This document shows, piece after piece, positions 4,395-18,183 of a stretch of 33,062 nt of DNA. The notes under the pieces were generated by a model. That model was not told where the DNA came from. It searched no databases and saw only the letters and a program-made list of their open reading frames with translations. The DNA is from Prevotella sp. (GTDB lineage Bacteria > Bacteroidota > Bacteroidia > Bacteroidales > Bacteroidaceae), in assembly GCA_017524385.1 (NCBI GenBank), contig JAFWSS010000041.1:1-33062 (forward strand), read 5' to 3'. The translations under genes and the position numbers were made by a program. Every line of letters begins with the position of its first letter. The first letter of the stretch is position 1.

Positions 4395-5762
4395 TTACAC
4401 CACTCCTAATTGATGCAGGAACACTGCAATGATGCAGATGGGGCATACGAAGCGCACGAAGAAGAGGAAGATCTTGTAGACCGTGGCCGGCAAAGAGTCC
4501 CAATTGGTAACTTGGTCACGCACCACCTTCCTTGGAACATACCATCCCACGAAGAGGCAGGTGAGCAGAGAGCCTAATGGAAGCAACACCTGGGCCGTCA
4601 ATGCATCGCACGCATCGAGGATGTTCATCCCCATCACCTTGGCTGAAGACAACATGCCTTGTGAAAGCGAACAGAAAACGGCGATGACACTGCAGCAGAT
4701 AGTGACAACCCACGCCCCGGCATTGCGCGAGATATGCAGTTCCTCATGGAAGAACGCTGTCCCAATCTCATGCATGGAGATGGTGGAAGTGAGGGCGGCC
4801 AGGGCAAGCAACGCATAGAAAAGAATGGAGATGACATAGCCCAGTGCCGGCATGGTGGCGAACGCCTCGTTGAAGACATTGGGCAATGTGATGAAGATGA
4901 GCGAAGGACCCGAGTCGGGTGCGACACCCACTGAGAATGCAGCGGGGAAAATCATCAGGCCGGCGAGGATGGCGATGAAGGAGTCGATCAGCGCAATCTG
5001 AACCGCCGAACCCACTAAATTCGTCTCACGCTTGAAATAAGAAGCGTAGGTGCACAGACACGCAGTACCAAGGCTGAGTGAGAAGAATGCCTGCCCTAAG
5101 GCCTCGAGAAACACGCTGTGTGTGACCTTGGAGAAGTCGGGATGAAAGAGGAAGCGAACACCCTTCATCGCACCAGGTAGCATGCACGATGCCACGATGA
5201 TGACCAGCAGCAGCACGAAAAGCGTGGGCATGAGGAGTTTGGAGGCTTTCTCTATGCCATTGCGCACACCGCGTGCCACCACCACATGGGTGGCAACGAT
5301 GAACGCCACCGCCCACAACACAGGCTTCCACGGATTGCTGGAAAAGTCTTGGAAATAAGTCTGAACATAGCCGGCGTCACCATCGAGATGGCCCACTATG
5401 GAGGCCAGGAGGTATTGCAGACACCAACCGGCGACGACAGCATAGAAGCCGAGGATGATCATCGAGGTGACCACGCCGAGGTATCCGATGACACGCCAAG
5501 GGGTGCGACCGGCCAACTTGTCATATGCCTTGGCGGCGTTGGAGCCAGAATGACGCCCCACGACAAACTCGGCCACCATTCCGGAGATGCCTAGGATGAA
5601 AACGCAGAAGAAATAGATGAGTATGAAGGCGGCACCTCCGTTCATCCCTGTCATATAGGGAAAACGCCAGATGTTGCCTAAACCCACGGCGGAACCCGCC
5701 GTGGCGAGGATGATGCCCATCTTCGAACCGAAGCTTCCCCTTGTATGTTCGTGCTTCGTCAT
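4395..5762 (-). CDS. Sodium-dependent transporter, NSS (SLC6) family, downstream paralogue
   Basis: The 455-aa protein is a neurotransmitter:sodium symporter family member, an inner-membrane carrier that usually takes up amino acids with Na+. The family hallmark in helix 1, GSAVGLGNIWRFPYMTG, is at residues 23-39 and supplies sodium and substrate contacts in LeuT-type structures. Another conserved stretch, GVAPDSGPSLIFITLPNVF, lies near residue 282. Hydrophobic segments fit 11-12 helices and the length is normal. It follows its paralogue by 12 nt and must share its transcript. The substrate cannot be read from the sequence; a branched or aromatic amino acid is plausible by family. Confidence 0.9.
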   Translation of the reverse strand: MTKHEHTRGSFGSKMGIILATAGSAVGLGNIWRFPYMTGMNGGAAFILIYFFCVFILGISGMVAEFVVGRHSGSNAAKAYDKLAGRTPWRVIGYLGVVTSMIILGFYAVVAGWCLQYLLASIVGHLDGDAGYVQTYFQDFSSNPWKPVLWAVAFIVATHVVVARGVRNGIEKASKLLMPTLFVLLLVIIVASCMLPGAMKGVRFLFHPDFSKVTHSVFLEALGQAFFSLSLGTACLCTYASYFKRETNLVGSAVQIALIDSFIAILAGLMIFPAAFSVGVAPDSGPSLIFITLPNVFNEAFATMPALGYVISILFYALLALAALTSTISMHEIGTAFFHEELHISRNAGAWVVTICCSVIAVFCSLSQGMLSSAKVMGMNILDACDALTAQVLLPLGSLLTCLFVGWYVPRKVVRDQVTNWDSLPATVYKIFLFFVRFVCPICIIAVFLHQLGVV

Positions 5763-5774
5763 ATCCGCAAATGA

Positions 5775-7139
5775 TTAGATGAGACCCAGTTGGTGAAGGA
5801 AGATGAGCAGGATGCTCAACGGGCAGATGAAACGCACGCAGAAGAGATACAACTGGAAGAAGGTGCCTTTCAGCGTGCCCCAGTTGGTGAACTCGTCACG
5901 AACAACCTGTTTCGGGGCCACCCATCCAAGGAAGATGCAAGTGAGCAGACCGCCGATGGGCAGGAAGATTTGACCGGTGACGTAGTCGAAGATGTCGAAC
6001 AGAGGCTTGCCGAAGAGGCTCAGCACATCCCAGGCGCCCAAGGATAGCGAACAAAACACCCCCATCACCATGCAGGCGACTGTAACCAGAACCGCTGCCT
6101 TCGAACGCGACACCTTCATCTCTTCCTGGAGGAAGGCGGTGCTCACTTCATGGAGGGAGATGAGCGACGTGAGAGCCGCCACGGAGAGCAGGACATAGAA
6201 CAGCACTGACACTACGACACCAAGCACAGGTATGGATGCGAAGGCTTGTTGGAAAACATTGGGCAGGGTGATGAACACAAGGGAGGCTCCTGAGTCGGGG
6301 GCCACGCCAACGGAGAATGCTGCGGGGAAAATCATCAGTCCGGCGAGGATGGCCACCATGCAGTCTACAACGCTGATTTGCAATGCCGACTTGAAGAGGT
6401 TGGTATGTCGAGAGAAATAGGAGGCGTAGGTGCAGATGCATCCCATGGCAATGCTGAGGGAATAGAACGACTGTCCCAAGGCGCCCAGAAACACACCCCT
6501 GTCCACCTTTCCGAAGTCGGGCTTGAAAAGGAAGGTGATGCCCTTGCCTGCACCGGGGAGAAGGCACGATGCCACTACTAGCACCAGCAGAAGGATGAAC
6601 AAAAGGGGCATCATCAACTTTGACATCTTTTCTATGCCATTGCGTACGCCACGGACAATGATGAGATGGGTGATGGCGAGGAAAGCTACTGTGGTGATGA
6701 TGGGCTTCACCGGGTGGGAAGAGAAATCCTTGAAATAATTCGTCACGTGTGAGGCGTCTCCGTTGAGTGTTCCCACTGCAGAGCCGAAGACATACTGCAG
6801 GCACCATCCTGACACCACAGCATAGTATCCGGAGATGAGGAATCCTGTCAGTACGCCGAGGTAGCCCACGCATTTCCATGGACTGCCACCGGCCATACGG
6901 TCGTAGGCTCTCGCAGTGTTGGCTGCACCATGGCGCCCGATGATGAATTCGCTCACCATGCAAGGTATGCCCAGCATGAGCACGCAGACGATGTAGATGA
7001 TGATGAAGGCGGCACCGCCGTTCTCACCTGTCATGTATGGGAAGCGCCATATGTTGCCCAAACCAACGGCGGAACCCGCCGTGGCCAGCACCACGCCCAA
7101 CTTGCTGCCAAAACTGGCTCTTTCTGTTGCTTTCGACAT
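5775..7139 (-). CDS. Sodium-dependent transporter, NSS (SLC6) family, upstream paralogue
   Basis: This 454-aa membrane protein is the first gene of the tandem pair. The helix-1 motif GSAVGLGNIWRFPYMTG is at residues 22-38, and GVAPDSGASLVFITLPNVF recurs at about residue 281. The two paralogues align along their whole length without obvious gaps but differ at many positions, so the duplication is old. Different substrate choice, or assembly of related carriers, would be reasons to keep both; neither can be decided here. Confidence 0.9.
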   Translation of the reverse strand: MSKATERASFGSKLGVVLATAGSAVGLGNIWRFPYMTGENGGAAFIIIYIVCVLMLGIPCMVSEFIIGRHGAANTARAYDRMAGGSPWKCVGYLGVLTGFLISGYYAVVSGWCLQYVFGSAVGTLNGDASHVTNYFKDFSSHPVKPIITTVAFLAITHLIIVRGVRNGIEKMSKLMMPLLFILLLVLVVASCLLPGAGKGITFLFKPDFGKVDRGVFLGALGQSFYSLSIAMGCICTYASYFSRHTNLFKSALQISVVDCMVAILAGLMIFPAAFSVGVAPDSGASLVFITLPNVFQQAFASIPVLGVVVSVLFYVLLSVAALTSLISLHEVSTAFLQEEMKVSRSKAAVLVTVACMVMGVFCSLSLGAWDVLSLFGKPLFDIFDYVTGQIFLPIGGLLTCIFLGWVAPKQVVRDEFTNWGTLKGTFFQLYLFCVRFICPLSILLIFLHQLGLI

Positions 7140-13897: not shown

Positions 13898-13927
13898 TTT
13901 GAAAGTCAAGAAAAAGTTATAATTTTG
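13898..13927 (+). promoter_or_regulatory. Promoter of the aromatic amino acid operon
   Basis: TTTG at 13898-13901 and TAATTTTG at 13920-13927 are separated by 18 nt, close to the Bacteroidota sigma-ABfr spacing. Transcription should begin at about 13934, some 20 nt before the leader peptide ATG. Confidence 0.75.
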
Positions 13928-13954
13928 CACCCACAACAACAAAAGAGTGACAAA

Positions 13955-14029
13955 ATGAGAAGTCTCAGCGCATATTATTACTTTTACCTCTACTTTGCAA
14001 ACTGTTGCGAAGCGGGAAATTGCGTGTAG
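13955..14029 (+). CDS. Tyr/Phe-rich leader peptide of the aromatic operon
   Basis: The 24-aa frame runs from ATG 13955 to TAG 14027-14029. Residues 7-14 are YYYFYLYF, so five Tyr and two Phe codons fall within eight codons. After six to ten further residues (ANCCEAGNCV) it ends inside the attenuator. The 3' codons GAA GCG GGA form the 5' arm of the antiterminator. A leader peptide enriched for the end products of the following genes is the hallmark of ribosome-mediated attenuation, as with pheL in enterobacteria. The peptide itself is probably not functional. Confidence 0.88.
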   Translation: MRSLSAYYYFYLYFANCCEAGNCV

Positions 14030-14105
14030 ATTCCGATATCACTCCTAAAAGGCCAGAGGCCTGCTTAGTTTCCCGCTTCAAACAAGAGGCGGGATTGTTT
14101 GTTTT
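14009..14105 (+). promoter_or_regulatory. Transcription attenuator: antiterminator and terminator hairpins
   Basis: Segment GAAGCGGGAAA (14009-14019, inside the leader frame) is exactly complementary over 11 bp to TTTCCCGCTTC (14069-14079). The latter can instead pair with GAGGCGGGA (14086-14094) to form a terminator with a six-base loop and a T-rich tail (ATTGTTTGTTTTA). A small hairpin AGGCC-AGA-GGCCT (14050-14062) lies between. A ribosome stalled on the last Tyr/Phe codons (13991-13996) would stop just short of 14009 and leave the antiterminator free; one that reaches the stop codon covers it and lets the terminator form. The geometry is seen in the sequence; the mechanism is inferred. Confidence 0.87.
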
Positions 14106-14158
14106 ATAAAGCGGCATTCCATCAACGCTGCAAATAGGAAGGGTGTAAAAACAACGAT

Positions 14159-15001
14159 ATGAAGAGAATCGCCATACAGGGCCGCATAGGGTCGTTCCAC
14201 GACATCGCCGCCCATCTGTTTTTCGAGGGAGAGCAAATGCAAATCATCTGCTGCTCAACATTTGAGGAGGTCTATGAAAATATACGCATCGACCCCACAA
14301 TCATCGGCCTCACCGCCATAGAGAACACCATCGCCGGAAGCTTGCTGCACAATTATGAGTTGTTGCGCGACTCCGGAACAACGGTGGTGGGAGAGCACAA
14401 GTTGCACATCAAGCACTGCATCTGTTGCCTGCCCGAAGACGACTGGGACAGCCTCGACGAGATACATTCACACCCCGTCGCGCTGATGCAGTGCAGGCAG
14501 TTCCTCGCCAAGCATCCCACGCTCAAAGCAGTGGAGACCGAGGACACGGCTGGGGCGGCCGAGGAAATAATGGCCCGCCAACTGAGAGGGAAGGCAGCCA
14601 TCTGCCATGCCGAGGCTGCAAGGCTGTACGGCATGAAGGTCCTCGAGGACTCCATCGAGGATAACAAGCACAACTTCACACGATTCCTCGTGGTGTGCGA
14701 CCCAAGGAAGGCCGACTTCCTACGCTCATTGGAGAAGTCTAACAAGTCGAGCATCGTCTTCTCGCTCCCTCACGAGGAAGGGTCGCTCTCGAAGGTGCTC
14801 ACCATCCTCTCCTTCTACAATATCAATATGACTAAAATACAGTCGCTGCCCATCATCGGCCACGAATGGGAATACCTCTTCTATGTGGATGTCACATATA
14901 ACAACATCACTCGCTACAGACAGAGCATCGACGCCATCACCCCACTGACCAAAGAACTGAAAATTTTAGGAGAATATGAAACAGGAAGACAAACCAGTTA
15001 A
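14159..15001 (+). CDS. pheA: Prephenate dehydratase
   Basis: The 280-aa enzyme turns prephenate into phenylpyruvate, the committed step to phenylalanine. The prephenate dehydratase domain fills about residues 1-180 (AIQGRIGSFHDIAAHLFF, ENTIAGSLLHNYELL, TEDTAGAAEEI and the catalytic-loop NFTRFLVV), and an ACT regulatory domain follows at about 198-275 (EEGSLSKVLTILSFYNINMT), which in the family binds Phe for feedback inhibition. No chorismate mutase domain is attached; that activity is supplied by the DAHP synthase fusion two genes downstream. It is the first structural gene behind the attenuator, and its end overlaps the aminotransferase start by 26 nt. Confidence 0.93.
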   Translation: MKRIAIQGRIGSFHDIAAHLFFEGEQMQIICCSTFEEVYENIRIDPTIIGLTAIENTIAGSLLHNYELLRDSGTTVVGEHKLHIKHCICCLPEDDWDSLDEIHSHPVALMQCRQFLAKHPTLKAVETEDTAGAAEEIMARQLRGKAAICHAEAARLYGMKVLEDSIEDNKHNFTRFLVVCDPRKADFLRSLEKSNKSSIVFSLPHEEGSLSKVLTILSFYNINMTKIQSLPIIGHEWEYLFYVDVTYNNITRYRQSIDAITPLTKELKILGEYETGRQTS

Positions 15002-16160
15002 CATCGTCCCGGCAGAACGGCTCAGCCTGGTGCAGGAGTATTATTTCAGCCGGAAACTGAAGGAGGTGGCTCGGCTCAACGCGGAAGGGCGCGACATCAT
15101 CAGCCTGGCCATAGGAAGCCCCGACATGCCACCGTCGGAAGAAACCATCGAAACCCTCTGCCAAGTGGCACGACGCCACGACGCACACGGATACCAACCC
15201 ACCATGGGTACGCCGGAACTGAGACAGGCAATGGCATCTTTTTATAAAAGGTGGTATGGCGTGACTCTCGAACCCGCAACAGAGATACTACCCCTCATCG
15301 GAAGCAAGGAAGGAATACTCCACGTCACGCTGGCTTTCGTCAACCCAGGAGACGGAGTCCTGGTGCCAAATCCAGGATATCCCACATACACATCGCTGAG
15401 CAAAATACTCGGCGCAAGAATCGTCAACTACAACCTCAGGGAGGACAACGCATGGCAACCCGACTTCGACGAACTGGAGCAAATGGACCTCGAAGGAGTG
15501 AAACTGATGTGGACCAACTACCCCAACATGCCTACTGGAGGCGACGCCAGGATGGAAACCTATGAAAGGCTCGTCGATTTCGCAAGGAGAAAGGGCATCG
15601 TCGTCGTCAACGACAACCCTTATTCTTTCATTCTCAACCAGAACCCAAAATCGCTGCTGCAAGTGGAGGGGGCAAAGGAATGCTGCATTGAGTTCAACTC
15701 CATGAGCAAGAGCCACAACATGCCGGGATGGCGCGTGGGACTATGCGCCACCAACGCTACCTTCATCTCATGGATACTCAAGGTGAAAAGCAACATCGAC
15801 AGCGGAACTTTCCGTGGCATACAACTCGCAGCTGCTCAAGCATACGCCAACGACGACGAATGGCATCAAGAATACAACAGAGTCGTCTACACACGACGAA
15901 GAGCCATCGCTGAGGACATCATGAGAACTCTCAAATGCACCTTCGACCCAAGGCAGGTGGGCATGTTCCTCTGGGGAAAAATACCCGACAAATACGACGA
16001 CGTGGAGCAACTCACCGAACGTGTGCTACATAAGGCAAGGGTCTTCATCACGCCGGGATTCATCTTCGGTTCCAACGGAAAACGATACATCCGCATCTCC
16101 CTCTGCGCAAAGGAAGAGAAGATGAAAGAGGCCCTCGAAAGAATACAAAACACACTCTGA
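14976..16160 (+). CDS. Class I/II PLP aminotransferase, probably aromatic
   Basis: This 394-aa fold-type I aminotransferase shows ISLAIGSPDMPPS near residue 40, PNPGYPTYTSL near 131, the NDNPYSF motif near 212 and the Schiff-base Lys in FNSMSKSHNMPGWRVG near 235-248. By position between pheA and the shikimate-entry enzyme it most likely transaminates phenylpyruvate and 4-hydroxyphenylpyruvate to Phe and Tyr, though its sequence would equally fit LL-diaminopimelate or aspartate aminotransferase relatives. It overlaps pheA by 26 nt, which suggests translational coupling. Confidence 0.88.
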   Translation: MKQEDKPVNIVPAERLSLVQEYYFSRKLKEVARLNAEGRDIISLAIGSPDMPPSEETIETLCQVARRHDAHGYQPTMGTPELRQAMASFYKRWYGVTLEPATEILPLIGSKEGILHVTLAFVNPGDGVLVPNPGYPTYTSLSKILGARIVNYNLREDNAWQPDFDELEQMDLEGVKLMWTNYPNMPTGGDARMETYERLVDFARRKGIVVVNDNPYSFILNQNPKSLLQVEGAKECCIEFNSMSKSHNMPGWRVGLCATNATFISWILKVKSNIDSGTFRGIQLAAAQAYANDDEWHQEYNRVVYTRRRAIAEDIMRTLKCTFDPRQVGMFLWGKIPDKYDDVEQLTERVLHKARVFITPGFIFGSNGKRYIRISLCAKEEKMKEALERIQNTL

Positions 16161-16199: not shown

Positions 16200-17270
16200 A
16201 TGGAACTCAATCTACAACCACTACACCTCCCCAGCGACCATGAACGCCCAATAGTAATCGCAGGACCATGCTCGGCTGAAACCGAAGAGCAAGTGATGAC
16301 AACTGCAACACAACTGGCCTTGAAAGGATGCCATATGTTCAGGGCAGGAGTATGGAAACCAAGAACAAAACCCGGAGGATTCGAAGGGCAGGGAGAAAAA
16401 GCTATGCCGTGGCTCAAACGCGTGAAGAATGAGACCGGTATGCTCGTCGCAACCGAAGTGGCTACACCTGAGCATGTTAGGATTGCACTTGAATATGATA
16501 TCGACATCCTTTGGATTGGAGCACGCACATCTGCCAACCCCTTCGCCATGCAAGCTCTCGCCGACTCCCTAAAAGGCGTGGAAAAACCCGTACTGGTGAA
16601 AAACCCCGTCAACCCTGACCTCGAACTGTGGATCGGGGCCTTGGAACGCATCAACCAAGCTGGTGTCAAAAAACTTGCCGCCGTGCACAGGGGATTCTCT
16701 AGCTATGACAAGAAAATTTACCGAAACCTCCCCATGTGGCAGATTCCAATCGAATTGAGGAGACGCATCCCCAACCTACCCATCATCTGCGACCCTAGCC
16801 ACATCGGAGGAAGGAGGGAACTCGTCGCACCACTATGCCAGCAGGCGATGGACCTCGGATTCGACGGACTGCTCGTTGAGTCTCACTGCGACCCCGACAG
16901 GGCATGGAGCGACGCCAAGCAGCAAGTCACACCCGACATCCTCGACTATATCCTCTCACTGCTCGTCATTCGAGACGAGAAAGTCACAACGGAGGGCATT
17001 CACGAACTACGCAAGCAAATCGACGAACTGGACAACCAACTGATGGACCTCCTCGCCAAAAGAATGCGAGTATGCCGAGAAATAGGACAATACAAGAAGG
17101 AGCACAACATGACCGTGCTGCAACCCACCAGATACGGAGAAATACTCGACAAGAGAGGCGCACAAGGAGCTCTATGCGGCATGGGGTCCGACTTCGTGAA
17201 GAAAGTCTTCGAAAACGTACACGAGGAGAGCGTCAGGCAACAGATGGAAATACTTAGCCGAAAAGATTGA
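16200..17270 (+). CDS. Bifunctional DAHP synthase / chorismate mutase
   Basis: The 356-aa protein fuses two activities. Residues 1-255 are a class I-beta DAHP synthase of the KDO8P-synthase-like type (AGPCSAETEEQV near 20, FRAGVWKPRTKPGGFEGQG near 46, CDPSHIGGRRE near 197), which joins phosphoenolpyruvate and erythrose 4-phosphate at the entry of the shikimate pathway. Residues about 262-350 are an AroQ-type chorismate mutase (ELRKQIDELDNQLMDLLAKR, then KRMRVCREIGQYKKEH), making prephenate. Such fusions commonly let the mutase domain carry feedback control. It supplies the substrate for both pheA and tyrA in this operon. Confidence 0.92.
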   Translation: MELNLQPLHLPSDHERPIVIAGPCSAETEEQVMTTATQLALKGCHMFRAGVWKPRTKPGGFEGQGEKAMPWLKRVKNETGMLVATEVATPEHVRIALEYDIDILWIGARTSANPFAMQALADSLKGVEKPVLVKNPVNPDLELWIGALERINQAGVKKLAAVHRGFSSYDKKIYRNLPMWQIPIELRRRIPNLPIICDPSHIGGRRELVAPLCQQAMDLGFDGLLVESHCDPDRAWSDAKQQVTPDILDYILSLLVIRDEKVTTEGIHELRKQIDELDNQLMDLLAKRMRVCREIGQYKKEHNMTVLQPTRYGEILDKRGAQGALCGMGSDFVKKVFENVHEESVRQQMEILSRKD

Positions 17271-17382: not shown

Positions 17383-18183
17383 ATGAGAATATTGGTAATG
17401 GGAGCAGGGAAAATGGGGAGTTTCTTCCTCGACCTGCTTAGTTTCGAGCATGAGACCGCTGTCTATGAGAAAGACCCGCGACGAATGAGGTTCACATACA
17501 ACACACAACGGTTCACCAAACTGGAAGAGATTGAAGCCTTCAGACCTGAACTGGTCATCAACGCCGTCACAGTGAAATACACCATCCCGGCATTCGACGA
17601 AGTGACACCATGCCTACCCGACGACTGCATCATCAGCGACATCGCTTCGGTGAAGACTGGACTGAAGGAATATTACGAGAAGTCGGGAAGGAGATACGTC
17701 TCCACACACCCAATGTTCGGACCCACTTTCGCCAACCTACAGCAACTCTCCGAGGAGAATGCCATCATCATCAGTGAGGGAGACTACATGGGAAGGATCT
17801 TCTTCAAGGACCTCTACAGAAGGCTAGACCTCAACATCTATGAGTACACCTTTGAAGAGCACGACCGCACCGTGGCTTATTCACTCAGCATACCATTTGT
17901 GAGCACTTTCGTCTTCGCTGCAGTGATGAAACACCAGGATGCACCCGGTACCACATTCAAAAGGCATATGCGAATCGCAAAAGGAGTGCTCACGGAAGAC
18001 GACTACCTGCTCCAGGAAATACTTTTCAACCCATACACACACGACCAGGTGGCACAGATAAGAACCGAGCTGAAAGAACTGCTTCAAATCATCGATAACA
18101 AGGACGCAGACGGAATGGCTGCATACCTGGCAAAAATCAGGGCAAATGTGAAACGAGACCTCGAAACTGATACCAGGCGATGA
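17383..18183 (+). CDS. tyrA: Prephenate dehydrogenase
   Basis: The 266-aa enzyme oxidatively decarboxylates prephenate to 4-hydroxyphenylpyruvate for tyrosine. The NAD(P)-binding motif is MGAGKMGSFF at residues 6-15; THPMFGPTFANL near 107 is the conserved HPMFGP substrate region, and SDIASVKTGLKEYY lies near 86. No ACT domain follows, so control is likely to come from the attenuator and from the DAHP synthase. It is the last gene of the operon; a T-rich weak hairpin (TTTTCAC/GTGAAAA near 18257-18275) may help end the transcript. Confidence 0.92.
   Translation: MRILVMGAGKMGSFFLDLLSFEHETAVYEKDPRRMRFTYNTQRFTKLEEIEAFRPELVINAVTVKYTIPAFDEVTPCLPDDCIISDIASVKTGLKEYYEKSGRRYVSTHPMFGPTFANLQQLSEENAIIISEGDYMGRIFFKDLYRRLDLNIYEYTFEEHDRTVAYSLSIPFVSTFVFAAVMKHQDAPGTTFKRHMRIAKGVLTEDDYLLQEILFNPYTHDQVAQIRTELKELLQIIDNKDADGMAAYLAKIRANVKRDLETDTRR

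Follow-up and report, generated by a model that had tools for sequence, protein, structure and literature searches.

The DNA analysed here, which we refer to as the window, is a 33,062-nucleotide stretch of a Prevotella contig whose forward strand carries four genes of phenylalanine and tyrosine biosynthesis preceded by a short leader (Table 1). All four genes returned clear E-values, though these lie under the NCBIfam curated cut-offs for the families shown. In 28 of 30 loci, counting that of the window, pheA is followed by the aminotransferase gene; of the two exceptions, L015 ends soon past pheA and L028 has no aminotransferase gene in the flank examined. The named pheA records nearest to that of the window, of which 80 out of 523 were kept, come mostly from uncultured Prevotellaceae and Prevotella, with identities of at most 91%, and the titles of several mention ruminant gut samples. 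The assembly itself may be mixed: it measures 5.05 Mb with a listed contamination of 6.56%, and the 35 genus relatives range from 1.4 to 4.3 Mb. Elsewhere in the window, two adjacent paralogous membrane-protein genes (4395-7139, reverse strand) resemble, by eye, sodium-dependent amino-acid/neurotransmitter transporters, and a cluster of five tRNA genes lies at 2223-2729 on the forward strand.

Table 1. Features of the leader region and the operon, in window coordinates; functional names are predictions.
Feature	Coordinates	Strand	Basis or remark
-33 element of leader promoter, TTTG	13898..13901	+	18 nt ahead of the -7 box
-7 element of leader promoter, TAATTTTG	13920..13927	+	Bacteroidota TAnnTTTG; motif also upstream of most leaders
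Leader peptide ORF, 24 aa, MRSLSAYYYFYLYFANCCEAGNCV	13955..14029	+	sequence; leader frame in relatives' pheA loci
5' side of outer 1:2 stem, GCGCA	13968..13972	+	partner 14021-14025
Control codons Tyr-Tyr-Tyr-Phe-Tyr-Leu-Tyr-Phe	13973..13996	+	Tyr/Phe run also in relatives
Arm 1, CTTTGCAA	13993..14000	+	last Tyr-Phe-Ala codons; 8-bp hairpin with 14005-14012
3' side of inner 1:2 hairpin, TTGCGAAG	14005..14012	+	overlaps arm 2; fold and genus alignment
Arm 2, antiterminator 5' arm, GAAGCGGGAAA	14009..14019	+	perfect 11-bp inverted repeat with arm 3
3' side of outer 1:2 stem, TGCGT	14021..14025	+	genus alignment
Arm 3, antiterminator 3' arm	14069..14079	+	14071-14079 doubles as terminator 5' arm
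Intrinsic terminator hairpin (arms 3:4)	14071..14094	+	9 pairs, loop of 6
T-rich tail of terminator	14095..14105	+	sequence
pheA, prephenate dehydratase	14159..15001	+	NCBIfam E 1.7e-54, below curated cut-off
Aminotransferase, LL-diaminopimelate/aspartate type	14976..16160	+	NCBIfam, below cut-offs shown
DAHP synthase fused to chorismate mutase	16200..17270	+	NCBIfam, below cut-offs
tyrA, prephenate dehydrogenase	17383..18183	+	NCBIfam E 1e-17, below cut-off

The initial annotation of this region had described a promoter, a 24-residue leader with the run YYYFYLYF, a perfect 11-bp antiterminator whose 5' arm lies inside the last codons of the leader, and a competing terminator with a T-rich tail. 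Each of these elements is present where it was placed. The run comprises five Tyr codons, two Phe codons and one Leu codon; its last Phe codon is separated from arm 2 by 12 nt, and the stop codon begins 8 nt past the final base of that arm, in agreement with the spacing given originally. By sharing arm 3, the antiterminator and the terminator are mutually exclusive. What had been missed is a further hairpin, seen in a fold of the whole leader, which joins the last Tyr-Phe-Ala codons to the start of arm 2 and completes the classical set of 1:2, 2:3 and 3:4 pairings; in the genus this gives the leader a protector or pause hairpin that includes control codons. The terminator on its own is unremarkable against shuffled sequence, with nine terminator-like sites between 13000 and 19000 and a shuffle mean of 6.7 (sd 2.6), and it is the comparative evidence that carries it. 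Within the antiterminator loop, a small hairpin (AGGCC AGA GGCCT, 14050-14062) has, by eye, no clear equivalent in most rows of the genus alignment.

The leader promoter fits the Bacteroidota type rather than the sigma-70 type, judging by its two motifs. The upstream TTTG is presumably the partner element of Bacteroidota promoters, and a sigma-70 scan of the window did not include this promoter among its listed sites. We would place the transcription start near 13933, a few bases past the -7 box, whose consensus, TAnnTTTG, is named as that of Bacteroidota in the available text of PMC9723704. Of 99 leader loci, 81 have the same motif at most 60 nt ahead of the leader's start codon (shuffle mean 3.8), and 76 of them add an upstream TTG (shuffle mean 0.5); here and throughout, shuffles are of single bases.

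Together, these features outline a switch that would work as follows. RNA polymerase would start just past the -7 box, and a ribosome would follow it on the leader frame. When charged tRNA-Tyr or tRNA-Phe is scarce, the ribosome would stall in the Tyr/Phe run and disturb or cover arm 1, leaving arm 2 free to capture arm 3 ahead of the synthesis of arm 4, and the polymerase would read through into all four genes. When both charged tRNAs are ample, the ribosome would pass the last Phe codon and mask arm 2, allowing the 3:4 terminator to form, and we expect termination near 14105. If the leader is not translated at all, the 1:2 hairpin would hold arm 2 and termination would be expected again.

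How widely the leader occurs was assessed in 110 pheA loci, comprising 30 from a first listing and 80 chosen before their upstream regions were seen. A leader was counted when a short ATG frame with at least six Tyr or Phe in nine residues lay in the upstream span, which was 400 nt for the first 30 loci and up to 500 nt for the other 80. By this measure, 99 of the 110 loci have a leader: all 37 from the genus, all 30 from the rest of the family and 32 of 43 beyond the family. The same scan finds one in only two of the 110 reverse complements and in four of 2200 shuffles, and a chance origin of the frame is therefore rejected. The 11 leaderless loci all lie beyond the family (L072, L073, L078, L080, L082, L091, L096, L099, L101, L103 and L106); L073 and L078, although under the threshold, carry a weaker YFWFY frame. 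Among 80 named loci, a set that partly repeats the 110 (at least six loci: L149, L157, L162, L168, L169 and L171), 78 have the leader; L176 shows none within 400 nt, and L179 covers only 140 nt upstream. Given such a frame rich in codons for the products of the operon behind it, whose translation is predicted, the leader resembles those of known attenuators.

Outside the class, the leader becomes scarce. It is found in four (L112-L115) of 20 loci from other classes of the phylum; these 20 were selected among the upper entries of the listing so as to vary the family. The pheA products of these four begin with AIQG, a start shared by only two (L125 and L127) of the 16 leaderless other-class loci, and L125 has a frame just below the threshold, with five Tyr or Phe in nine. 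On this ground, the leader appears to go with one pheA subfamily, and pheA and leader may move together outside the class.

Within the genus, a pattern of the leader core that leaves six loop bases free was searched, with at most one mismatch, in 200 genomes. It matched 128 of them, once each, and the reversed pattern matched none. Of 26 genus relatives with pheA, 21 have a core match, and the other five carry leaders that fall outside the pattern. Eight of nine genus genomes lacking pheA gave no core match, though some of these assemblies are incomplete. One locus (L111; G029:C62:7800-11700) comes from a genome listed as 99% complete in which pheA was not found and the attenuator is kept: its leader, MLNYVYASFYYFYLYFTNTCEAEVCVP, stands immediately before the aminotransferase, DAHP synthase and tyrA genes and retains both Tyr and Phe codons.

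Loss of the leader frame and its pairing arms in close relatives was what the initial annotation had named as speaking against it. The comparison was run and gave the opposite, with a leader in 37 of 37 genus loci and arms that remain able to pair. Over the 37 aligned genus sequences, 99.7% of the cells of the 1:2 hairpin pair, as do 83.8% of those of the outer stem and 93.6% of the two combined; versions slid out of register attain 26-63%. Neither the share paired nor the covariation score of the 1:2 set is attained by any of 500 shuffles; two of the five measures are, 22 of 500 shuffles equalling its number of pairs with both sides changed and 79 of 500 its number of further pair types. An additional view comes from the pair that closes the 1:2 loop, formed by the first and last of the six free bases and thus unconstrained by the core pattern. 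It is canonical in 126 of the 128 core matches (A-T 74, G-C 48, T-A 3, T-G 1; non-pairing 2), a figure to be taken as a count rather than a probability, since related sequences are not independent. Over the wider set, the signal is more modest: the 42 nt surrounding arm 1 exceed their shuffles in stability only mildly (a mean z of -1.0 for the 99 leaders), and the outer stem is found in 50 of 99 leaders, against about 30 and 27 for comparison.

For the 2:3 pairing, 88.9% of cells pair in the genus alignment, against 37-54% for slid versions. Its covariation score there (0.052) does not rise above shuffles, 232 of 500 of which reach it, and lies below the scores of partners slid by -1 to -3 columns (0.059-0.119); four of the nine pairs are invariant. 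The match between the arms was further gauged by comparing each leader's own duplex with substitutes. Own duplexes average -20.3 kcal/mol in the genus, -17.5 in the rest of the family and -14.9 beyond, against -10.5, -8.8 and -7.3 kcal/mol with a shuffled arm 2 and -14.9, -14.1 and -9.5 kcal/mol with the arm 2 of a leader from another genus or family. Of the 32 leaders beyond the family, 31 have an own duplex stronger than the median of such swaps between families. At most two of 50 shuffled versions of arm 2 are as good as the own arm in 33 of 36 genus leaders, 24 of 28 from the rest of the family and 23 of 32 beyond.

These arms also bear on whether selection acts on RNA or on peptide. The small frame might encode a functional peptide, with the terminator an unconnected end signal or a weak attenuator, and the residues FA..CEAG are indeed well conserved in the genus; but they coincide with arm 1 and arm 2, and arm 2 elsewhere stands in another codon phase. 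Of the 37 genus leaders, 34 have the arm-2 motif in codon phase 0, one has it in phase 2 and two have it past the stop codon. In the 30 leaders from the rest of the family, it lies in phase 2 in 18, past the stop in 10 and in phase 1 in one (L057, where an earlier stretch probably matched the short motif by chance), and it was not found in one. Beyond the family, the motif was found in 10 of 32 leaders, its positions covering each of the three phases as well as the region after the stop. Across families, arms 2 and 3 fit each other, and arm 2 persists through changes of its reading frame. Because the RNA arm is retained in other codon phases, peptide-level selection on the C-terminal part of the leader is rejected, and we regard the functional-peptide explanation as highly improbable. 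For the remaining part of the switch, a terminator-like hairpin with a T-rich tail, one finder gives 98 of 99 leaders, with some hairpins mis-set (such as those of L006, L014 and L015), and a second gives 96 of 99; the three leaders without a terminator by the latter were dropped from the folding and duplex sets.

A structured leader with a terminator would also suit a quite different sensor of Phe and Tyr, namely a T-box, an amino-acid riboswitch or a leader-binding protein, with the small frame incidental. The window, however, contains no Rfam family at gathering score, and a permissive search returned two sub-threshold matches, both on the other strand. Neither the T-box covariance model nor RF01859 is among the matches of either search. 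Given in addition that the run of Tyr/Phe codons is conserved, such a sensor is highly improbable here.

Folding of the window reproduces the switch that a ribosome-mediated attenuator would require. In minimum-energy folds of the RNA up to 14100, in which the edge of the ribosome lay 13 nt away from the first base of the A-site codon, a ribosome at codons 13982-13994 leads to the antiterminator, and one at 13973-13979, at 13997 or later, or no ribosome at all leads to the terminator. A slightly longer RNA with scripted terminator calling moves the antiterminator stretch to 13985-13997. The modelled switch point is thus the end of the Tyr/Phe run, to within one codon, and the geometry is that of known attenuators, with a ribosome at the control codons freeing arm 2 and one at the stop codon covering it.

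The same geometry was examined in 96 leaders (36 genus, 28 rest of the family, 32 beyond), with an outcome that depends on how much RNA is folded. Full-length equilibrium folds switch in only 27 of the 96 at an edge of +12 (14 of 36, 6 of 28 and 7 of 32, respectively), and over edges from +11 to +14 the numbers range over 5-15, 3-7 and 4-9. Folds that end at arm 3, before arm 4 exists, switch in 88 of the 96 (31 of 36, 27 of 28 and 30 of 32). Full-length equilibrium folding was therefore dropped as a general test, and its result counts against the attenuator reading; with so few full-length switches outside the window, the model there needs early, kinetic pairing. We accordingly read the modelled switch as kinetic, like the race between ribosome and polymerase by which the trp and his attenuators are modelled in the available text of PMC1183508. 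At the arm-3 stage, 70 of the 96 loci still let arm 3 pair with upstream sequence when no ribosome is present, so folding does not fix a low basal expression, which in the model would rest on the 1:2 hairpin forming first.

Which amino acid the ribosome would report is a finer matter. The initial annotation had taken the dominance of Tyr codons as expected of one switch serving pheA and tyrA together, and this does not hold as a rule: Tyr outnumbers Phe in 25 of the 37 leaders from the genus, in 8 of the 30 from its other family members and in 5 of the 32 from beyond the family. On average, a genus leader has 4.5 Tyr and 3.7 Phe, one from the remaining family 4.8 and 5.6, and one from beyond it 3.7 and 4.8, and with such differences between groups the inference is local at best. 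In the window, moreover, the first three Tyr codons fall outside the predicted sensing stretch in both folding set-ups. One may then suppose that attenuation is real and that only one amino acid is sensed here, through the codons nearest the arm, the last of which is Phe. The folds do confine antitermination to the codons F, Y, L, Y and F at 13982-13994 or, in the other set-up, to Y, L, Y, F and A at 13985-13997; yet both versions contain Tyr as well as Phe, nearly all listed leaders mix the two (L028 has Phe only), and the pheA-less leader of G029 retains both. We consider sensing of a single amino acid unlikely, with a real share of the probability left to it.

Putting these lines together, we conclude that the joint Phe/Tyr operon is very probably controlled by a classical ribosome-mediated transcription attenuator, as first proposed. 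The argument, made from sequence comparison and modelling, draws on the content of the operon, the presence of the leader in every sampled genus (37 of 37) and other family (30 of 30) locus, the co-varying arms, the retention of arm 2 across codon phases and the 88 of 96 folds that switch at arm 3. Other amino-acid genes of the same genome gave no comparable leader: no His-rich frame was seen upstream of hisG, no convincing Ile/Val/Leu frame near ilvD, and no Trp-rich leader on the gene strand near two chorismate-binding genes.

The closest textbook relative is the enteric pheA attenuator (pheL), which we take to be what RF01859 (Phe_leader) represents, with Phe codons in its leader. The two have in common a Phe-rich frame, overlapping pairings and an intrinsic terminator before a prephenate dehydratase gene; unlike pheL, the leader described here has mixed Tyr/Phe codons, a four-gene operon that includes tyrA, a Bacteroidota promoter and no Rfam match. 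Escherichia coli likewise has single leaders, thrL and that of ilvGMEDA, in which codons for two or more amino acids stand before a common operon; these are alike in this respect but concern other amino acids and another lineage.

In part, this arrangement was anticipated by an attenuator listed for Bacteroides thetaiotaomicron in 2005 and a 5' element of pheA named for Flavobacteriaceae in 2021. Table 7 of Song et al. 2005 (PMC1173090) lists a putative attenuator, taken from Merino's database, for pheA > hisHb > aroAIb-aroQ > tyrA of Bacteroides thetaiotaomicron; with hisHb read as the aminotransferase, the gene order and the position of the predicted attenuator are those of the window. That entry, as available, names no leader peptide, codons or conservation, unlike the present analysis. 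PMC9723704 (2021) describes, in its available text, a structured 5' element of Flavobacterium psychrophilum pheA, common to other genera of Flavobacteriaceae and with no Rfam hit, which like the window's leader is a structured part of the transcript ahead of pheA, and it reports strong clues that point to leader-peptide attenuation before operons for amino acids. The same text, whose scope is Flavobacteriaceae, does not state pheA among the leader-peptide cases and gives no sequence. A further parallel is the uORFC-13-1 motif upstream of aroF in Acholeplasma (24 examples; PMC8632094, available part), likewise a short frame with Phe codons by a terminator before an aromatic-pathway gene; it belongs to another lineage, with at least one Phe codon and, in that part, no Tyr/Phe run described. 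Short frames reminiscent of leader peptides have been noted in 5' UTRs of B. thetaiotaomicron (PMC7366714, available text). In 2010, the authors of PMC2965389 wrote, in the text available, that to their knowledge leader-peptide systems had been unshown outside Proteobacteria and Actinobacteria before their own Firmicutes case. In a literature search that covered few subscription papers, we found no description of the Tyr/Phe codons of this leader or of its class-wide reach.

The finding extends a textbook switch in a phylum for which we found few such described cases. We somewhat favour, over its opposite, a broader history in which one joint Tyr and Phe attenuator has accompanied this pheA subfamily from roughly the ancestor of the class Bacteroidia onwards, travelling with it into a few other classes. 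Natural variants of the leader, among them the changed codon phases of the arm, the early stops and the loss of pheA in G029, could separate RNA function from peptide function, and the G029 locus is in itself a natural test of what the attenuator senses. The element also offers a test of how one leader weighs two amino acids and of transcription-translation coupling in Bacteroidota. If the broader history is true, it would imply kinetic coupling of polymerase and ribosome across Bacteroidota, which mostly initiate translation without Shine-Dalgarno pairing.
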